Shown: positions 16,246 through 63,760 of the stretch, piece by piece | How positions within the stretch are numbered: position 1 is the first letter of the stretch | Layout of the letters: each line of letters starts with the position of its first letter | Origin: Mesorhizobium sp. M4B.F.Ca.ET.058.02.1.1 | GTDB lineage: Bacteria; Pseudomonadota; Alphaproteobacteria; Rhizobiales; Rhizobiaceae | DNA length: 64,000 nt | Direction of reading: 5' to 3' | Assembly (NCBI RefSeq): GCF_003952505.1 | Contig: NZ_CP034450.1 | Span: forward strand, 124,001 to 188,000 | The notes under the pieces: generated by a model | Database searches by the model: none | What the model saw: the letters and a program-made list of their open reading frames with translations, nothing else | What the model was told of the DNA's origin: nothing | Position numbers and translations under genes: made by a program

Positions 16246-16296
16246 ATGAAAACGGCACTCATTCTCGTAGGACTGCGCGTGGGCAAGGCGGTGTAA
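16246..16296 (+). CDS. ilvI leader peptide
   Basis: A 16-codon ORF reading MKTALILVGLRVGKAV, in which seven of 16 residues are Leu, Ile or Val. It lies between a promoter-like site and a terminator-like hairpin upstream of ilvI. This is the layout of branched-chain amino-acid attenuation: ribosome stalling at Ile/Val/Leu codons when charged tRNA is scarce would prevent terminator formation. Its stop codon lies in the loop of the hairpin GGCGGT-gta-ACCGCC (16287-16301). Confidence 0.75.
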   Translation: MKTALILVGLRVGKAV

Positions 16297-16330
16297 CCGC
16301 CGGGCGAAAACCTCCCATGCGCATCACACA

Positions 16331-16353
16331 GGCTCCCTCGGGGCCTTTTTTAT
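16331..16353 (+). terminator. ilvI attenuator terminator
   Basis: Stem GGCTCC (16331-16336), loop CTC and arm GGGGCC (16340-16345), followed by TTTTTTATT. The stem is short but the U run is good. It lies 35 bases after the leader peptide stop and 63 bases before ilvI, where a regulated terminator is expected. Confidence 0.7.
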
Positions 16354-16415
16354 TGCCCGAAACACGACTAAACGACCAGCAACGCCCAAATGGCGACAGT
16401 ACGGGATCAGGACCG

Positions 16416-56363: not shown

Positions 56364-56998
56364 AGGCCGGGCCTCGCCAATGCGTTGAGGGCAGCGGCGG
56401 TCATGGCGCTGCCGCCCAGCCTGCCGCGCACGATGGCGTAAGGCACGCCATAGGAATTCTCGGCCAGCGCGTCCTTCGATTCGGCGGCCCCGACGAAGCC
56501 GACCGGCATGCCGATGATCGCCGCCGGCTTCGGCTCGCCGTCGCGCAGTTTTTCCAGCAGATAGAAGAGCGCCGTTGGCGCGTTGCCGATGGCGACGACC
56601 GAGCCGGCGATGCGCTCGCCCCAGAGGTCGATTGCCGCGGCCGAGCGGGTGTTGCCGATTTCTTTCGCGATCTCATGCGTACGCGGATCGCGCAGCGTGC
56701 AGATCACCTCGTTGCCGGCCGGCAGGCGAGCGCGGGTCACGCCATGCGAAACCATCTCGGCGTCGCAGAAGATCGGCGCGCCTGCGGCAAGCGCCGCGCG
56801 CGCCGCATCCACGAAACCGCTGGAGAAGACGAAATGGCTGGCGGCCTCGACCTGGCCGCAGGCATGGATCATGCGGATCGCAACATCGGCCTCGGCGTCC
56901 GAGAAGCGCGACAGGTCGGCCTCGGCGCGGATGATGGCGAAGGAGCGCTCATAGATCGCCGTGCCGTCGTGGATGTAGTCGTAGGCCGCCATGCTCAT
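56360..56998 (-). CDS. cobH: Precorrin-8X methylmutase
   Basis: A 212-residue enzyme moving the methyl group from C11 to C12 to form hydrogenobyrinic acid. Conserved DGTAIYERSFAIIRAEADL, CDAEMVSHGVTRARLP (with the catalytic His) and IGMPVGFVGAAESKDAL. ATG 56998 overlaps the cobG stop in ATGA. Confidence 0.96.
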   Translation of the reverse strand: MSMAAYDYIHDGTAIYERSFAIIRAEADLSRFSDAEADVAIRMIHACGQVEAASHFVFSSGFVDAARAALAAGAPIFCDAEMVSHGVTRARLPAGNEVICTLRDPRTHEIAKEIGNTRSAAAIDLWGERIAGSVVAIGNAPTALFYLLEKLRDGEPKPAAIIGMPVGFVGAAESKDALAENSYGVPYAIVRGRLGGSAMTAAALNALARPGL

Positions 56999-58367
56999 TC
57001 CTGTCGGTAGATTTCGGCGATGCCGGCCGCGCCAAGCCTTGTGAGGCAAGCCGCGGCGGTTTCGCCTCGATGTCGTTGCGCGCGGATCGCTGCAAGGATG
57101 CCGCCTATGCCGCGCGCGGCGTCATAGCCCGGCCTGTATCCGGCAGGAAGAGCCTTTGCCGTCCCGCCAACGACAAGTCCGGCTCCGTTTTCGTCGCCGA
57201 CCAGTGTGAGGGCGGCCAAGCCGGGATGCGCGCAGCCTTTGGCGCAGCCGGAAACGTGCAGGCTGAGCGAGGCGTCGAGGAGGTCGCTGTTTTGCGCCGC
57301 GATGGTTTCGGCGATGGCTCGGGTGGCGATGCGGCCGGAGGCGCAGGCCGGTGTGCCGGGGCAGGCAGCGATGCGGGTTCGCGGATCGGCGGCGTCGGTG
57401 ACGAAGCCGAGGGCGGCGGCGGAGGTTTGCAGCGAGGTGCCGGCGGATGGGGCGAGGCCAAGGAAGAGCATGGCGCGGCCGGGGGACAGGCGGATCTCGG
57501 TCACGCCGAGATCCGAGGCTTGGCCGGCGAGATCGATGAGATTCCGTGCCGGCATGCTGCCGAAGGGTAGGCCGATGCCGAGGGCTTGGCCATTCGCGAG
57601 ATCAAAGATGCCGATGGGGGAGCGGGCTGGCGCAGGATGGCGCTCTACGGCGCCCCCTCTGTCCTGCCGGACATGTCCGGCAGGACAGAGGGGGGCGCGA
57701 AGGAATGCCAGCCTGCGAGAGAGGCCAGCTGTCGCTCCGACAAATCCCGCGCATGCGCCTCGCGACCCCTTTCGGCGACCATCCGGAGAGCAGCCACCGT
57801 GATATCCCGGGCCAAATCTGCTTCGACCACCGCAAGGGGCGTCGCGCTTCCGCCATCACCGGAAACCGATACCCTCCAAAGAATTTCGTCCTCAGCCTGT
57901 ACCGCGCTTAGCCGTATGTCGGCCGTCACCGCGTCCATCGTCAGTTGCCCACCGCCGTCGATCACCACCGAAACCTTCGGTCCCAGCCGTGGCGTCAGCC
58001 CGGCCTCTTCAACGGCCGCCCTGATCCGCTCGGCGAGCGGGCGCGGATCGGCAACCTCCTGTGGGTCAATACCCGCCAGTGGCCCGGTCTCGACCGGCAC
58101 GCCCGTGCGCACGGCAATCCCCAGCGCATCCACTTCGGCGGCCAGCAGGCGCGCGCTTTCCGCCGTCAGGCCACGGATCTGCAAACTGCCGCGCGCGGTC
58201 ACCTCCATGATACCGTTGCCGTGGCGCAAGGCGGATTCGCCGAGTCCGATCAAAAGCTTCGGTGGCATTCCTCCAGCGACCGGGTTGAGCCGCACCAGCA
58301 GTCCGTCGCCGGTCTGCATCGGCGTGCTGAGGGCAGGGCAGGCGCCACGGCGGGAGAAGGCGTTCAT
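56995..58367 (-). pseudogene. cobG: Precorrin-3B synthase cobG, frame broken inside a palindromic repeat
   Basis: CobG is the oxygen-dependent, iron-sulfur and haem-type reductase that starts ring contraction. The N-terminal half (58367 to about 57700; two ferredoxin-like/sirohaem-reductase segments, GIMEVTARGSLQIRGL) and the C-terminal half (from about 57640; SACPGTPAC-like IAACPGTPACASGR, HVSGCAKGCAHP Cys motifs) are in different frames. Between them sits a palindrome (57651-57697) whose arms have C5 on one side and G6 on the other. With C6 the whole gene is one frame, reading APPSVLPDMSGRTEGGAVE through the repeat. So either a recent frameshift or a homopolymer miscall. Confidence 0.85.
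57651..57697. repeat. Palindromic repeat inside cobG
   Basis: A near-perfect 47-bp palindrome centred on GGACATGTCC, with arms CGCCCCCTCTGTCCTGCC and GGCAGGACAGAGGGGGGCG. It shares its arms with the larger element inside cobN at 60319-60477. Read on the cobG strand it encodes APPSVLPDMSGRTEG. Confidence 0.9.
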
Positions 58368-60318
58368 GCCGCCACCCGCTGGGCTTCGGCGATCAGCGCG
58401 GCGAGATCGTCATCGATGGAGTTCCGCAAGGGGTGCCACAGGCCGCGCCGCCGCGCGGAGAGGAAGCGTTCCGCGATCACCTTCGCGGCGGCCGGGTTCT
58501 CGCGCAGGATGAAGGCGCGAACGTCCGCGTCGCCGAGATAGGCATCGTGCACCGCCTCGATCAGCGCGCCCGATATGGCATGCGTGGTCTCGGCAAAGCC
58601 GACGAGGCGGTCGACGGTCTCGGCGAACTCCGAGGCGCCGCGCGGACCATGGCGCATCTGGCCGGCGATGAAACGCGGATTGACGGCGCGGGCGCGGACC
58701 ACTCTGGCCACAGCTTCGCCCACCGAGCGCGGCTTCGGTTTCTGCGGGTCAGTGGTGTCGAGCACGATGAGGTCAGCATTCCTGCCGAGCGCGGCGAGGG
58801 CGGCCGAGAACCCGCCGATGAAGGCGACGTCAGCCGAACCCTCGAGGATGTCGCGGCCGGGGTCGTCGCCGGTGTGGACTAGCAGGTCGGCCTCGGCGAT
58901 GCGGCCCTCGAAGGCGCCAGGCGCGGAAATCGCTTCGCCGTCAGCGCCGCCATAGGCATGCGAGGTGGCGTCGAGATAGGCACGGCCAATTTCCTCGCGC
59001 GCGGTCCAATCGCCGCGCGATAATAGATCCTCGACGCCGGCGCCGTAGGTGCCGGGCGAGGTGCCGAAAATGCGCGGGCCGACCTTGCCCTCGGCGCGCG
59101 TCGCCGCGGCAAGCGGATTCTCGGCATCGTCCTCGTCGCGGCTCGAAACCGCGCTGGCGGCGGCATCGATCAGCGCGATCTGGGTCGGGAACATGTCGCG
59201 GAACAGGCCGGAAATGCGCCAGGTGACGTCGACGCGCGGCCGGCCAAGGGCTGCCGGTGGCAGCACCTCAATGCCGGTGACGCGGCCGGTGGCGCCATCC
59301 CATTGCGGCCGGCAGCCCATCAGCGCCAGGCCTTGAGCGATCTCCTCGCCGCCCGTGCGCAGCGAGGCCGAGCCCCAGAGGTCGATGACCAGCGTGCGCG
59401 GCCAGTCGCCATGCGACTGCATGTAGCTGCGCACGACTTCTTCCGCCGCTGCGTGGCCAAGGTCATAGGCGGTCGGCGTCGGCATAGTGCGGGGATCGGC
59501 GGTGAACAGGTTGCGGCCGGTCGGCAGCACGTCGGAGCGTCCGCGCGCAGGCGCGCCGGCCGGCCCGGCCTTGGTGTGGCGGCCGTCCAGCGCGGCTAGC
59601 AGGGCTGTCTTTTCCGCCTCTGCGCTTTGCCTACGCAGCGGATCAGCCTCGCCCTCGGGCGCGCGGCCGTAGACGTGCAGTCCGTCCTTGACGGCGAAAT
59701 CCTTGAGGTCACAGAGCCAGGCGTCGATGCGGCGCAGCGCTTCGTCCGGCGCGTCGGTTCTGGCAACGCCAGCTTCGGAGGCAAGCCCGGTTTTTCGCGC
59801 GGTCTCGACGATCAGCCTGGCCAGGCGGTCGCGGCGGCGACGGTCGAGCCCGTCGGCCTGCGCATATTCGTCGACCAGCCGCTCGAGGCGCTGCTGGTTC
59901 TCATCGAGGCCCGCACCAGTCAGCGGCGGCGGCAGGTGGCCGAGCGTGACGGCGGCGATACGGCGCTTGGCCTGCGCCGCTTCGCCGGGATTGGAGACGA
60001 TGAAGGGGTAGATGACGGGCAGCGCGCCGGTGACGATCTCGGGAAAGCAGGTGCCGGAGAGCGCGACGGTCTTGCCCGGCAGCCATTCCAGCGTGCCGTG
60101 CGCGCCGACATGGATGAGGGCGTGGACCCCGAGCGATTTTTGCAGCCAGAGGCCGAAGGCGATCAGGTCGTGGCGCGGGGGCAAAGTGGGGTCATGGTAG
60201 TCGGCGCGGCGGTCGACTGAGCGGCCACGATCGGGGGCGAGTGCCACGGTGAGGTTACCGAAGGTTGCGGCGCGGAAGGGGAAGTGCTGTCTGCATGATG
60301 AAGGTTGGCGTTCTGTCG

Positions 60319-60477
60319 CGCCCCCCTCTGCCCTGCCGGACATCTCCCCCACTTGGGGGGAGATCATGCCGTCACCGCCACCTTCGCTAATCGCCGCCGT
60401 TGCAAGAGGAGAGCCGATGCCAGAACTGCCAATTTCCCCCTTAGTGGGGGAGATGTCCGGCAGGACAGAGGGGGGCG
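60319..60477. repeat. In-frame palindromic element inside cobN
   Basis: A 159-bp element (exactly 53 codons) with 32-bp outer inverted repeats starting CGCCCCCCTCTG and ending CAGAGGGGGGCG. Each arm carries its own smaller hairpin (CTCCCCCACTTGGGGGGAG at 60344; CCCCCTTAGTGGGGG at 60436). On the cobN strand it encodes APPSVLPDISPTKGEIG ... ISPQVGEMSGRAEGGA. The cobG palindrome is the same element without its middle. Confidence 0.9.
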
Positions 60478-61309
60478 CCTCGCGCGAACCTGTCTCGTCT
60501 GATTTTCCCCAGGCAGCTTCGACGGCAGTCATTGCCTCAGTGGGCAACTCTTTCGACAAGTCTAGATAGTTCGTCAGCCCTAGCCCGCCACCACCCACCT
60601 CCAGCGCATCCAGCAACGCGCGCGGCGATTGCGGAATCGCGTCAACCGCATAGCCCTGTTCCTTCAGGTCGTGCAGCATCGCGAGCACGCTCGACGGCAC
60701 GTCGAGGCCGACGGCATAGCCGGTACGGCCGGGCGCGCTCGGATAATCCGGTATCAGGATCGCCAGCTTGCGCTCGGCCCGCTCGGTCCGCCGCAAGCGA
60801 ATGAACGCCGCGATGCGCTTGGCGACCTGCGCGACGCGATCGATCTCCGGCCGGTTGGCGAAGGCGCGGAAAGCTAGCGCCGGGTCGGTTTCGCTCTCGC
60901 CCTTGAACGAAATCGCGCCGGCCAGGATGCGGCCGTCGAGTTCCGGCAGCACGACATGCATGGCAAGGTCGGCGGGAGCCAGGCCGCGCTGGTTTTTCTC
61001 CCAGACCTGGCGGCGCGTGGTCGCGACGATGACCTGGAAGACCGGCACGCCGGCACGGTCGAACAGCGTCTCCGCGCCGGGCTCGGCGCCGGAGGCGAAT
61101 GCGGTGGCGGTGACGATGGCGGCCGGGTTCAGTGAGGCGAGGGCGTTCTCGACGAAGGCCAGAGACGCCTGATCCTTGAGACTCGAAACGAAGATCGGCA
61201 CCGGCGCGATGCCTTGCGCGTGCAGTGCGTCGACCAGCGCATCGATCGGCGCGACATCGGCGGCGAGCAGCATCGAGCGGTAGAAGAGGATGGGGACGAT
61301 GGGAGCGCC

Positions 61310-61471
61310 GTCTCCCTCCCCTCGAGGGAGGGTGGCCCGCAGGGCCGGGAGGGGTCGGGACGACTGGGCTTAACGTCTCTTCCTGCGGTCGTTCTTCAGG
61401 GTGTCGGCGCGTGTCGCGGAGGACCCCACCCCCGGCCTGCGGCCGGACCCTCCCCTCAAGGGGGAGGGGGA
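61310..61471. repeat. Second-type palindromic element inside cobN
   Basis: A 162-bp element with outer inverted repeats: left arm GTCTCCCTCCCCTCGAGGG (61310), right arm ending in CCTCAAGGGGGAGGGGGAC (61471). Each arm has an internal hairpin (GGCCCGCAGGGCC; CGGCCTGCGGCCG). The left arm has shorter C and G runs than the right arm's complement, which accounts for the frame change of cobN here. Confidence 0.85.
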
Positions 61472-62047
61472 CGACGCCGTGGCCCGGCTGATAATACCCT
61501 GCCTTCGGCACTCTAACCGGCTCGGCCACCGCCGTGTCTGACCCAGCCAGCCGCGCCAGCCTCTTCACCAGCGCTGTCATATTGGCCGGGCCGCCTTCGC
61601 GGAAATAGCCGAGCAGGGCGTCCAGTTCGGCGCGTGGCAGGGTCGAGCCCTCGATCAGCCGGAGGTCCTCGTCGTGGCTTTCGCCGGGCAGCAGCGCCAG
61701 CTTGATGCCGCGTTCGCGCGCGACCGCGGCGAGCTGGTCGCAGCCGTAGCGCCACCAGTCATAGCCGCCGAGGATGCGGACCAGGATGACCTTGGCATGG
61801 CGGGCGACGCTGTCGATCCAGAGGTCGACCGACATCGGATGGCGGAGATCGCGCAACGCGGCGAGCCGCATTGAGGGCAATCGTTCCGCGTCGGCCTTCC
61901 ATGCAGCCGCGAGCCCCGAGAGATCGCTGTCGGTGAAGGACAGCGCCACGACATCCGCAGGCGTCTGCCTGAGATCGACAGGCTCGGCGAGATCGTCGAG
62001 CGAGGCGGATGTGGTGGTGAGGATGTGCATGGCGGTTCGGGTTTGCC

Positions 62048-63516: not shown

Positions 63517-63565
63517 ATCAGGCTCCTTGCCCGGAAACCCGCCGGGCGATCGGATTCTTTTCTCG

Positions 63566-63760
63566 CAGACGGCAGGTCTCCTGGCTCGCGGGTCATCGCC
63601 TTGGTTAGCCGCCTTCCCGGGGAACATCCCAGTGGCTTTCGGCCTTGGCTCTTCGCTTACAGTTGCGGGGACAGCCGCGGATTTGGGCATTTTTCCCGCA
63701 CCGCATTCCCTCTTGGCTCCTCCTTTTGCCGGGAGGAGACCGTCTGGCCATGGATTTAGG
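63566..63760 (-). ncRNA. Cobalamin riboswitch
   Basis: On the minus strand it has the standard cobalamin riboswitch elements in order: a 5' stem region, the conserved GCGGGAAAAATGCC-like internal part, CCCGCAACTGTAAGCG (core), AAAGCCACTGGGA, GGGAAGGCGG, and the B12 box AGCCAGGAGACCTGCC (63571-63586). It precedes the DUF1636-cobW-cobN operon with the first start about 55 bases after the B12 box. High coenzyme B12 should repress the operon, probably by blocking translation, since I see no clear terminator between box and start. Confidence 0.95.

Follow-up and report, generated by a model that had tools for sequence, protein, structure and literature searches.

Palindromic repeats inside the cobalamin genes cobG and cobN of Mesorhizobium, probably translated and tolerated

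Introduction

The best-known cases of palindromes inserted in frame into conserved proteins come from Rickettsia and Wolbachia; shorter repetitive extragenic palindromic sequences (REPs) occur in genes of other bacteria, and cases of intragenic invertons are known. The subject here is a group of palindromic elements, E1, E2 and E3, inside the adjacent cobalamin genes cobG and cobN of Mesorhizobium sp. M4B.F.Ca.ET.058.02.1.1. These genes lie in a stretch of 64,000 nucleotides (the window; contig NZ_CP034450.1, positions 124,001 to 188,000) of a complete, single-contig genome of 6.46 Mb. The elements belong to two kinds, type A and type 2, and together have the appearance of a palindrome system that turns over rapidly and is translated and tolerated. 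Searches of an open-licence library showed no earlier description of inserts of this kind in Mesorhizobium.

Rickettsia palindromic elements (RPEs), in the part of the source used here, are palindromes of 105–146 bp located between genes and, as in-frame fusions, within 19 protein genes; in the test case, Gmk, activity is kept and substrate affinity is changed (PMC2229807). The R. conorii uvrB is among the genes hit, according to the section used of PMC3733652. In mode, the Mesorhizobium elements share with the RPEs so described the occurrence of palindromes both between genes and in frame inside them, a uvrB-like gene being among the hosts. They differ in belonging to another lineage and in their G+C-rich arms. 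Inversion, openness in both orientations, loop replacement, arm-only remnants and a second family at an orthologous site were not met for RPE in these parts of the sources. By analogy, the Mesorhizobium elements appear to work in the same protein-coding palindromic mode, and the likeness to RPE pointed out in the original prediction holds as a way of working, with these additions.

REPs of the GTAG and CGTC families are described, in the section used, as palindromes mostly downstream of genes, some of them in open reading frames (ORFs) including the UvrABCD genes (PMC3733652). Palindromic repeats lying partly inside genes, Uvr genes included, are a common trait to that extent. However, REP units measure 20–40 bp by description, and no match to the Y1 transposase (REP-associated tyrosine transposase, RAYT; PF01797) was found in the Mesorhizobium genome, while the control search gave matches in 5 of 14 genomes; RAYT mobilisation is rejected on this basis. 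Rhizobium-specific intergenic mosaic elements (RIMEs) are characterized, in the portion of the source used, as repeats of rhizobial intergenic regions (PMC2573895). Compared by that description only, they are likewise rhizobial repeats, relatives of E2 being present on rhizobial plasmids, but RIMEs are called intergenic and the cob elements are intragenic. A likeness to intragenic invertons is seen at one of the cobN sites (n2, see below), where an in-gene segment between inverted repeats is found in both orientations; the difference is that the Mesorhizobium inversion is seen between species, not within a culture.

Elements in cobG and cobN

E1 (Table 1) includes a perfect palindrome of 42 bp, the arms of which (57653–57673 and 57674–57694, 21 nt each, 100% complementary) meet with a spacer of 0, and is read as a loop-less remnant of a type-A element. 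E2 comprises 161 bp with arms of 47 nt (60318–60364 and 60432–60478, 91% complementary) and 67 nt between them; it is open in the cobN frame and has in-frame counterparts in relatives. The limits of E3 are approximate. Its ends resemble imperfect inverted copies of one another (by eye), no ungapped arm pair of at least 15 nt was found in it, and its parts recur in the genome in at least 15 matches, the next best of which covers 67 of 174 bases. A stem-loop with terminal inverted repeats of about 100–200 bp is represented by E2, and by E3 imperfectly only. The palindromes announced inside both genes by the original prediction are therefore real, with arms measured for E1 and E2. The sizes given there (47, 159 and 162 bp) come near the measured limits but are not exact, and the reading of E2 in frame, with cobN open on both sides, was confirmed.

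Table 1. Positions of the host genes and elements (window coordinates, unless genome positions are indicated)
Feature	Position	Strand	Remarks
cobN, cobaltochelatase subunit	58364..62030	minus	carries E3 (site n3) and E2 (site n2)
cobG, precorrin-3B synthase	56995..58367	minus	carries E1 (site g); two frames
E1, palindrome in cobG	57651..57697	not assigned	cobG frame changes here
E2, full type-A palindromic element in cobN	60318..60478	minus	read in frame as APPSVLPDISPTKGEIG...ISPQVGEMSGRAEGGA
E3, type-2 imperfect palindromic element in cobN	61311..61471	minus	PLPLEGRVRPQAGGG...TPPGPAGHPP; cobN frame changes here
19-mers CCTGCCGGACATTTCTCCC	genome positions 1258337, 3227622, 3744143, 4116962, 5189268, 5460891, 5491599, 6452554		basis: arm-pattern search

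Both genes are on the minus strand, cobN (62030 to 58364) first and cobG (58367 to 56995) after it. The cobN orthologue of locus L009, the nearest relative, scores above the NCBIfam cut-offs of NF008973 and TIGR02257 (CobN), and the cobG orthologue of locus L011 above that of TIGR02435 (CobG). Between 62030 and E3 cobN is read in one frame, and beyond E3, as far as 58364, in a second one. The cobG frame starting from 58367 enters E1 and meets a stop just past it, another frame continuing onward to 56995. Outside these two break points both genes are open.

Orthologous sites in relatives

The sites corresponding to E1 (g, in cobG), E2 (n2, in cobN) and E3 (n3, in cobN) were searched by anchors in 110 loci (L009–L118, L089 being the window's own); the distinct genomes number 93 and are mostly of Mesorhizobium. 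Some loci are too short or too distant to show every site; sequences with N (1, 1 and 2 loci at g, n2 and n3) and duplicates were dropped. Among the remaining 258 distinct sequences, 252 are a multiple of three in length and stop-free (79/82 at g, 88/90 at n2 and 85/86 at n3). Relatives thus carry frame-preserving inserts at the same sites, and strain-specific insertion, a possibility raised by the original prediction, is rejected because the sites are common across the genus.

What the sites contain ranges from full elements of type A or type 2 to remnants (for example APPSGRTEGGAV) and short linkers; at n2 and n3 there are also several further insert types, palindromic or not. In the nearest relative (L009), site g holds a full insert of 171 bp in place of the remnant E1, and n3 holds a type-A element in place of the type-2 E3 of the window. 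Type-2 inserts at n3 are in frame and stop-free in 22 of 23 distinct sequences, E3 being the exception. Among the 91 genomes of the tree set, three recognised full elements are present in 23, two in 33, one in 19 and none in 16.

Relatives without an element at a given site, the existence of which bears on the original prediction, were found for each site. Short sequences without an arm-like trace (an arm-like 7–10-mer, one mismatch allowed) number 2/82 at g, 18/90 at n2 and 24/86 at n3, and both cobN sites are trace-free in 7 loci (two of them with identical sequences). The n2 and n3 linkers vary in length even without elements. In M. carmichaelinearum (L064), the type-A elements of cobG and cobN both carry a second insert, GGEEWSAQRTESQLLGFPSDERPERQRRAGSG, in frame; it is a repeat within a repeat, common to the two sites.

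Reading frame of the inserts

The lengths of the element cores were considered at g (n = 61), n2 (n = 52) and n3 (n = 14), and the comparison set consisted of 38 cores elsewhere in this genome. Core length is a multiple of three in 59/61 cases at g and 51/52 at n2, and leaves a remainder of one in 13/14 at n3. For the 38 cores elsewhere, one of which lies in a nitrate-reductase-like gene, remainders of 0, 1 and 2 occur in 13, 14 and 11 cases. Judged by length, a frame preference of all copies is therefore rejected: the rule holds for in-gene copies and does not characterise the element family, since copies elsewhere are mostly intergenic and without length bias.

The frame actually read is open in 60/61 (g), 52/52 (n2) and 14/14 (n3) copies. 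Cysteine and tryptophan together make up about 0.5–2% of residues in this frame versus 3–8% in the other two frames of the same strand. There is little sign of residue constraint beyond openness, because loop variability across codon positions is flat at g and slightly higher at position 3 at n2 (0.24–0.25 versus 0.18–0.21).

The six broken sequences come from four genomes (L023, L079, L109 and the window's), all of them few-contig assemblies. Breaks occur in 4/13 few-contig genomes versus 0/78 others (91 distinct genomes without N; Fisher p = 0.00027). The few-contig label, a proxy for long reads, was given to genomes with no more than five contigs or with "complete genome" as part of the title; contig counts of the remaining named genomes do not enter. 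In L023, L079 and L109 the breaks are situated at C/G runs of the arms (by eye from translations), which lends plausibility to the earlier suggestion that homopolymer runs alone put E1 and E3 out of frame. The two frame breaks in this strain are most probably due to sequencing errors at the G/C runs of the hairpin arms, the alternative being recent real slippage. In long-read genomes, errors of this sort could give intact genes the appearance of pseudogenes.

Orientation, inversion and possible exchange

Element cores occur in both orientations at g (32/29) and n2 (27/25, one with a low margin), and those at n3 in one (14/0, two with a low margin). In the search with the CobG insert region, 58 of the 103 CobG proteins parsed among the 120 matches listed have one orientation and 45 the other. 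On a tree of 91 cobN flanks, the minimum number of orientation changes is 15 at g (59 copies) and 21 at n2 (52 copies).

Were a copy inverted, the frame then read would be open in 51/61 copies at g and 51/52 at n2, and in 1/14 at n3. By position arithmetic, this frame differs from the antisense frame in phase with the codons. The best remaining frame, besides the read frame and that of the inverted copy, is open in 30/61 (g) and 26/52 (n2). Among the 38 copies elsewhere, which are unoriented and of unequal lengths, each of the six frames is open in 14 to 29, and the same-numbered frame in 14. At n3 the register is asymmetric, so that inversion would close the frame, and one orientation only is present (14/14).

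In-place inversion between species is exemplified by L062 and L075 at n2, where 171/226 columns are identical directly versus 202/219 with the core inverted, both copies being open; this pair appears to be a clean case. Inversion raises the identical columns of L045 and L114 from 159/219 to 177/216, which points to the same event, and L044/L047 is perhaps another case. Recent exchange between sites g and n2 is suggested by L032 and L100, in each of which the two loops share 93% identity, the mean for loops within one genome being 72%.

Orientation independence is a probable feature of the system. The chances are about even that the type-A element is an orientation-independent coding cassette, with a benign frame open on both strands in mirrored registers, so that inverted or loop-exchanged copies would still be translated; n3 may be taken as a natural control for this reading. 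If it is true, segment flipping and swapping at fixed linkers could be a standing source of protein variation in the genus.

Copies elsewhere in this genome and in others

Copies were sought by DNA and pattern searches. Copy counts are lower bounds, and weak copies may be missing, because the DNA searches scored the best 40 of 69, 95 and 48 candidates and only part of the 114 arm-pattern matches was listed. With up to 3 mismatches allowed, the 19-base arm pattern matches 67 + 47 times in the 6.46-Mb genome, more than expected by chance, since the reversed control gives 2 + 0. At least 53 type-A clusters (E1 and E2 included, some of them one-armed) and at least 8 type-2 places (E3 included) are present.

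Copies outside the window were fetched with their flanks as 52 stretches, on which the gene model was trained. According to this model, 43 of the 53 type-A clusters are intergenic, 7 lie partly over a gene end and 3 are inside a gene, namely E2, one copy in L123 (nitrate-reductase-like) and one in L164, where it sits in the tail of a uvrB-like gene that is truncated at the stretch end. Owing to the frame breaks, E1 is counted as lying partly over a gene end, and E3 falls between two gene calls. Of the type-2 places, one is within the gene of a UvrD-like helicase (L167) and another within an ORF of weak score. The names nitrate-reductase-like, uvrB-like and UvrD-like rest on NCBIfam scores below the curated cut-offs and on Pfam domains. 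As with protein-coding palindromic elements, many copies exist, intergenic and intragenic.

The arm pattern with at most one mismatch is found in 11/297 genomes of the window's order, all of them in the window's own family. A distant DNA search with E2 matches 170/72,556 plasmid records, 136 of these being from Rhizobium or Sinorhizobium; in 30 plasmid records among the matches listed, E2 relatives have about 70–76% identity over most of the E2 length.

Eight identical 19-mers (Table 1) have no second arm nearby among the matches listed and were excluded from the 53 clusters; they possibly represent a multicopy element carrying one arm.

Inserts in other proteins and their structural position

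In-frame fusions are found in conserved genes of unrelated function (CobG, CobN, UvrD-like, UvrB-like, nitrate-reductase-like and ABC ATPase). The search with the CobG insert region matched 365 proteins, and the 120 matches listed include CobG, CobN and ABC ATP-binding proteins. The UvrD query, which included the UvrD flanks (best 8000 candidates scored, every fourth parsed protein examined), gave 120 listed matches, nearly all UvrD-like, the insert site of which holds 30–92 residues where parsed. Most of the UvrD-like proteins examined have a type-2 segment, and some, including those of Rhizobium sullae and Ciceribacter, a type-A-like one. The UvrD-like helicase of this genome (L167, 1–2514, minus strand) has conserved blocks joined by a loop into which a type-2 segment of about 60 residues is inserted, and many Mesorhizobium proteins are alike in this respect. 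Two type-2-like segments occur in one protein, the pyruvate dehydrogenase E2 of Mesorhizobium sangaii (P0206).

The nitrate reductases examined mostly have a type-A variant read as PAGHLPLK...GEMAGRPEGG, which is also present in a Rhizobium cobalamin protein (P0324) and in an acyl-CoA synthetase (P0318). In the genes met, the right arm is read as GEMxGRxEGG or nearly so and the left arm in at least three ways, DISP, LSCRTSPPQGG and PAGHLPLK (by eye); this survey is partly biased, one search having used a GEMxGRxEGG-type peptide as query.

An AlphaFold2 model of the L011 CobG (38 sequences, mean predicted local distance difference test score (pLDDT) 73.9) matches nitrite and sulfite reductases. 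Its residues 222–286 are under pLDDT 50 with confident surroundings, and the CobG insert is accordingly predicted to be a disordered segment in this relative. On the E. coli UvrD structure (3lfu), the site of the UvrD insert is bounded by residues 237 and 242. In CobN, n2 maps to the gap that separates the first and second blocks aligned to 9uk9 (chain residues 441 and 493), and n3 maps to a poorly matching stretch of 9uk9 near chain residue 190. The original interpretation of segments tolerated in the proteins is supported by the frame-preserving inserts and element-free versions in relatives, and also by the predicted disordered stretch of CobG and the UvrD loop of known structure.

Proposed explanation and alternatives

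Fixed sites across the genus, with frame and openness kept and element-free versions at each site, are directly evident from the sequences. The same is true of turnover (arm remnants, another family at n3, replaced loops) and of in-place inversion between the arms. The explanation considered highly probable is that non-autonomous palindromic repeats have settled in CobG and CobN linkers and are translated there as disordered segments. Rhizobial repeats of this kind (about 130–200 bp, mostly intergenic) would insert into the linkers, CobG and CobN would keep their activity, and copies breaking the frame would be removed by selection. The persistence of type-A elements at g and n2 could be due to the open frame, poor in cysteine and tryptophan, that their arms and loop provide in both orientations.

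Several observations weigh against this explanation or its parts. In the assembled sequence of this strain, both cobG and cobN have broken frames. Movement of a copy was not observed among the loci compared, no locus is trace-free at g, n2 and n3 together, and at g trace-free sequences are limited to the two mentioned. Recombination in the cob region could inflate the counts of orientation changes, which come from a quick tree with 29/88 inner branches starred and without a shuffled-label control. Most orientation differences are indistinguishable from replacement, because the mean identity of orthologous loops (0.71–0.80) hardly exceeds that of loops from different sites (0.70). In-place inversion is thus pointed to only by L062/L075, L045/L114 and perhaps L044/L047. 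Openness in both orientations could partly result from symmetric arms and shared ancestry.

The frame changes in both assembled genes could alternatively mean that the insertions inactivate cobG and cobN in this strain, with real frameshifts in the arms and decaying B12 synthesis. This is unlikely, given the confinement of breaks to few-contig assemblies (4/13 versus 0/78, p as above), the openness of both genes outside the two break points and the intact copies in relatives. If the arm homopolymers were contingency tracts, slippage in them would switch CobG and CobN on and off, and the position of the L023, L079 and L109 breaks at C/G runs would be in line with it; yet breaks are seen in few-contig assemblies only and no benefit is evident in switching a biosynthetic enzyme, so this alternative is very improbable.

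Recruitment of the inserts for a protein function (binding or regulation), beyond tolerance, is suggested by the UvrD insert, which recurs little changed in many of the Mesorhizobium proteins examined, and by the higher n2 loop variability at codon position 3, a hint of residue constraint. Element-free versions at each site, the replacement of one family by another at n3 and the flat variability of the g loops argue against it and make it improbable, though somewhat less so than contingency switching. Ordinary variable linkers that are palindromic by chance would agree with the length variation of n2 and n3 without elements, but the same element exists in dozens of genome-wide copies and in other genera; copy number refutes this reading, and its probability is negligible.

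Settled, translated and tolerated palindromic repeats could be studied here in culturable soil bacteria, in which some 90 genomes offer orthologous sites for comparison, the states found there being empty, remnant, swapped and inverted. The old question of neutral versus novelty-creating insertion would become directly testable in a laboratory organism.

Other features of the window

A cobalamin riboswitch lies near the cob genes (63554–63759, minus strand). An Atu_C8 small RNA is located at 16248–16362 on the plus strand.

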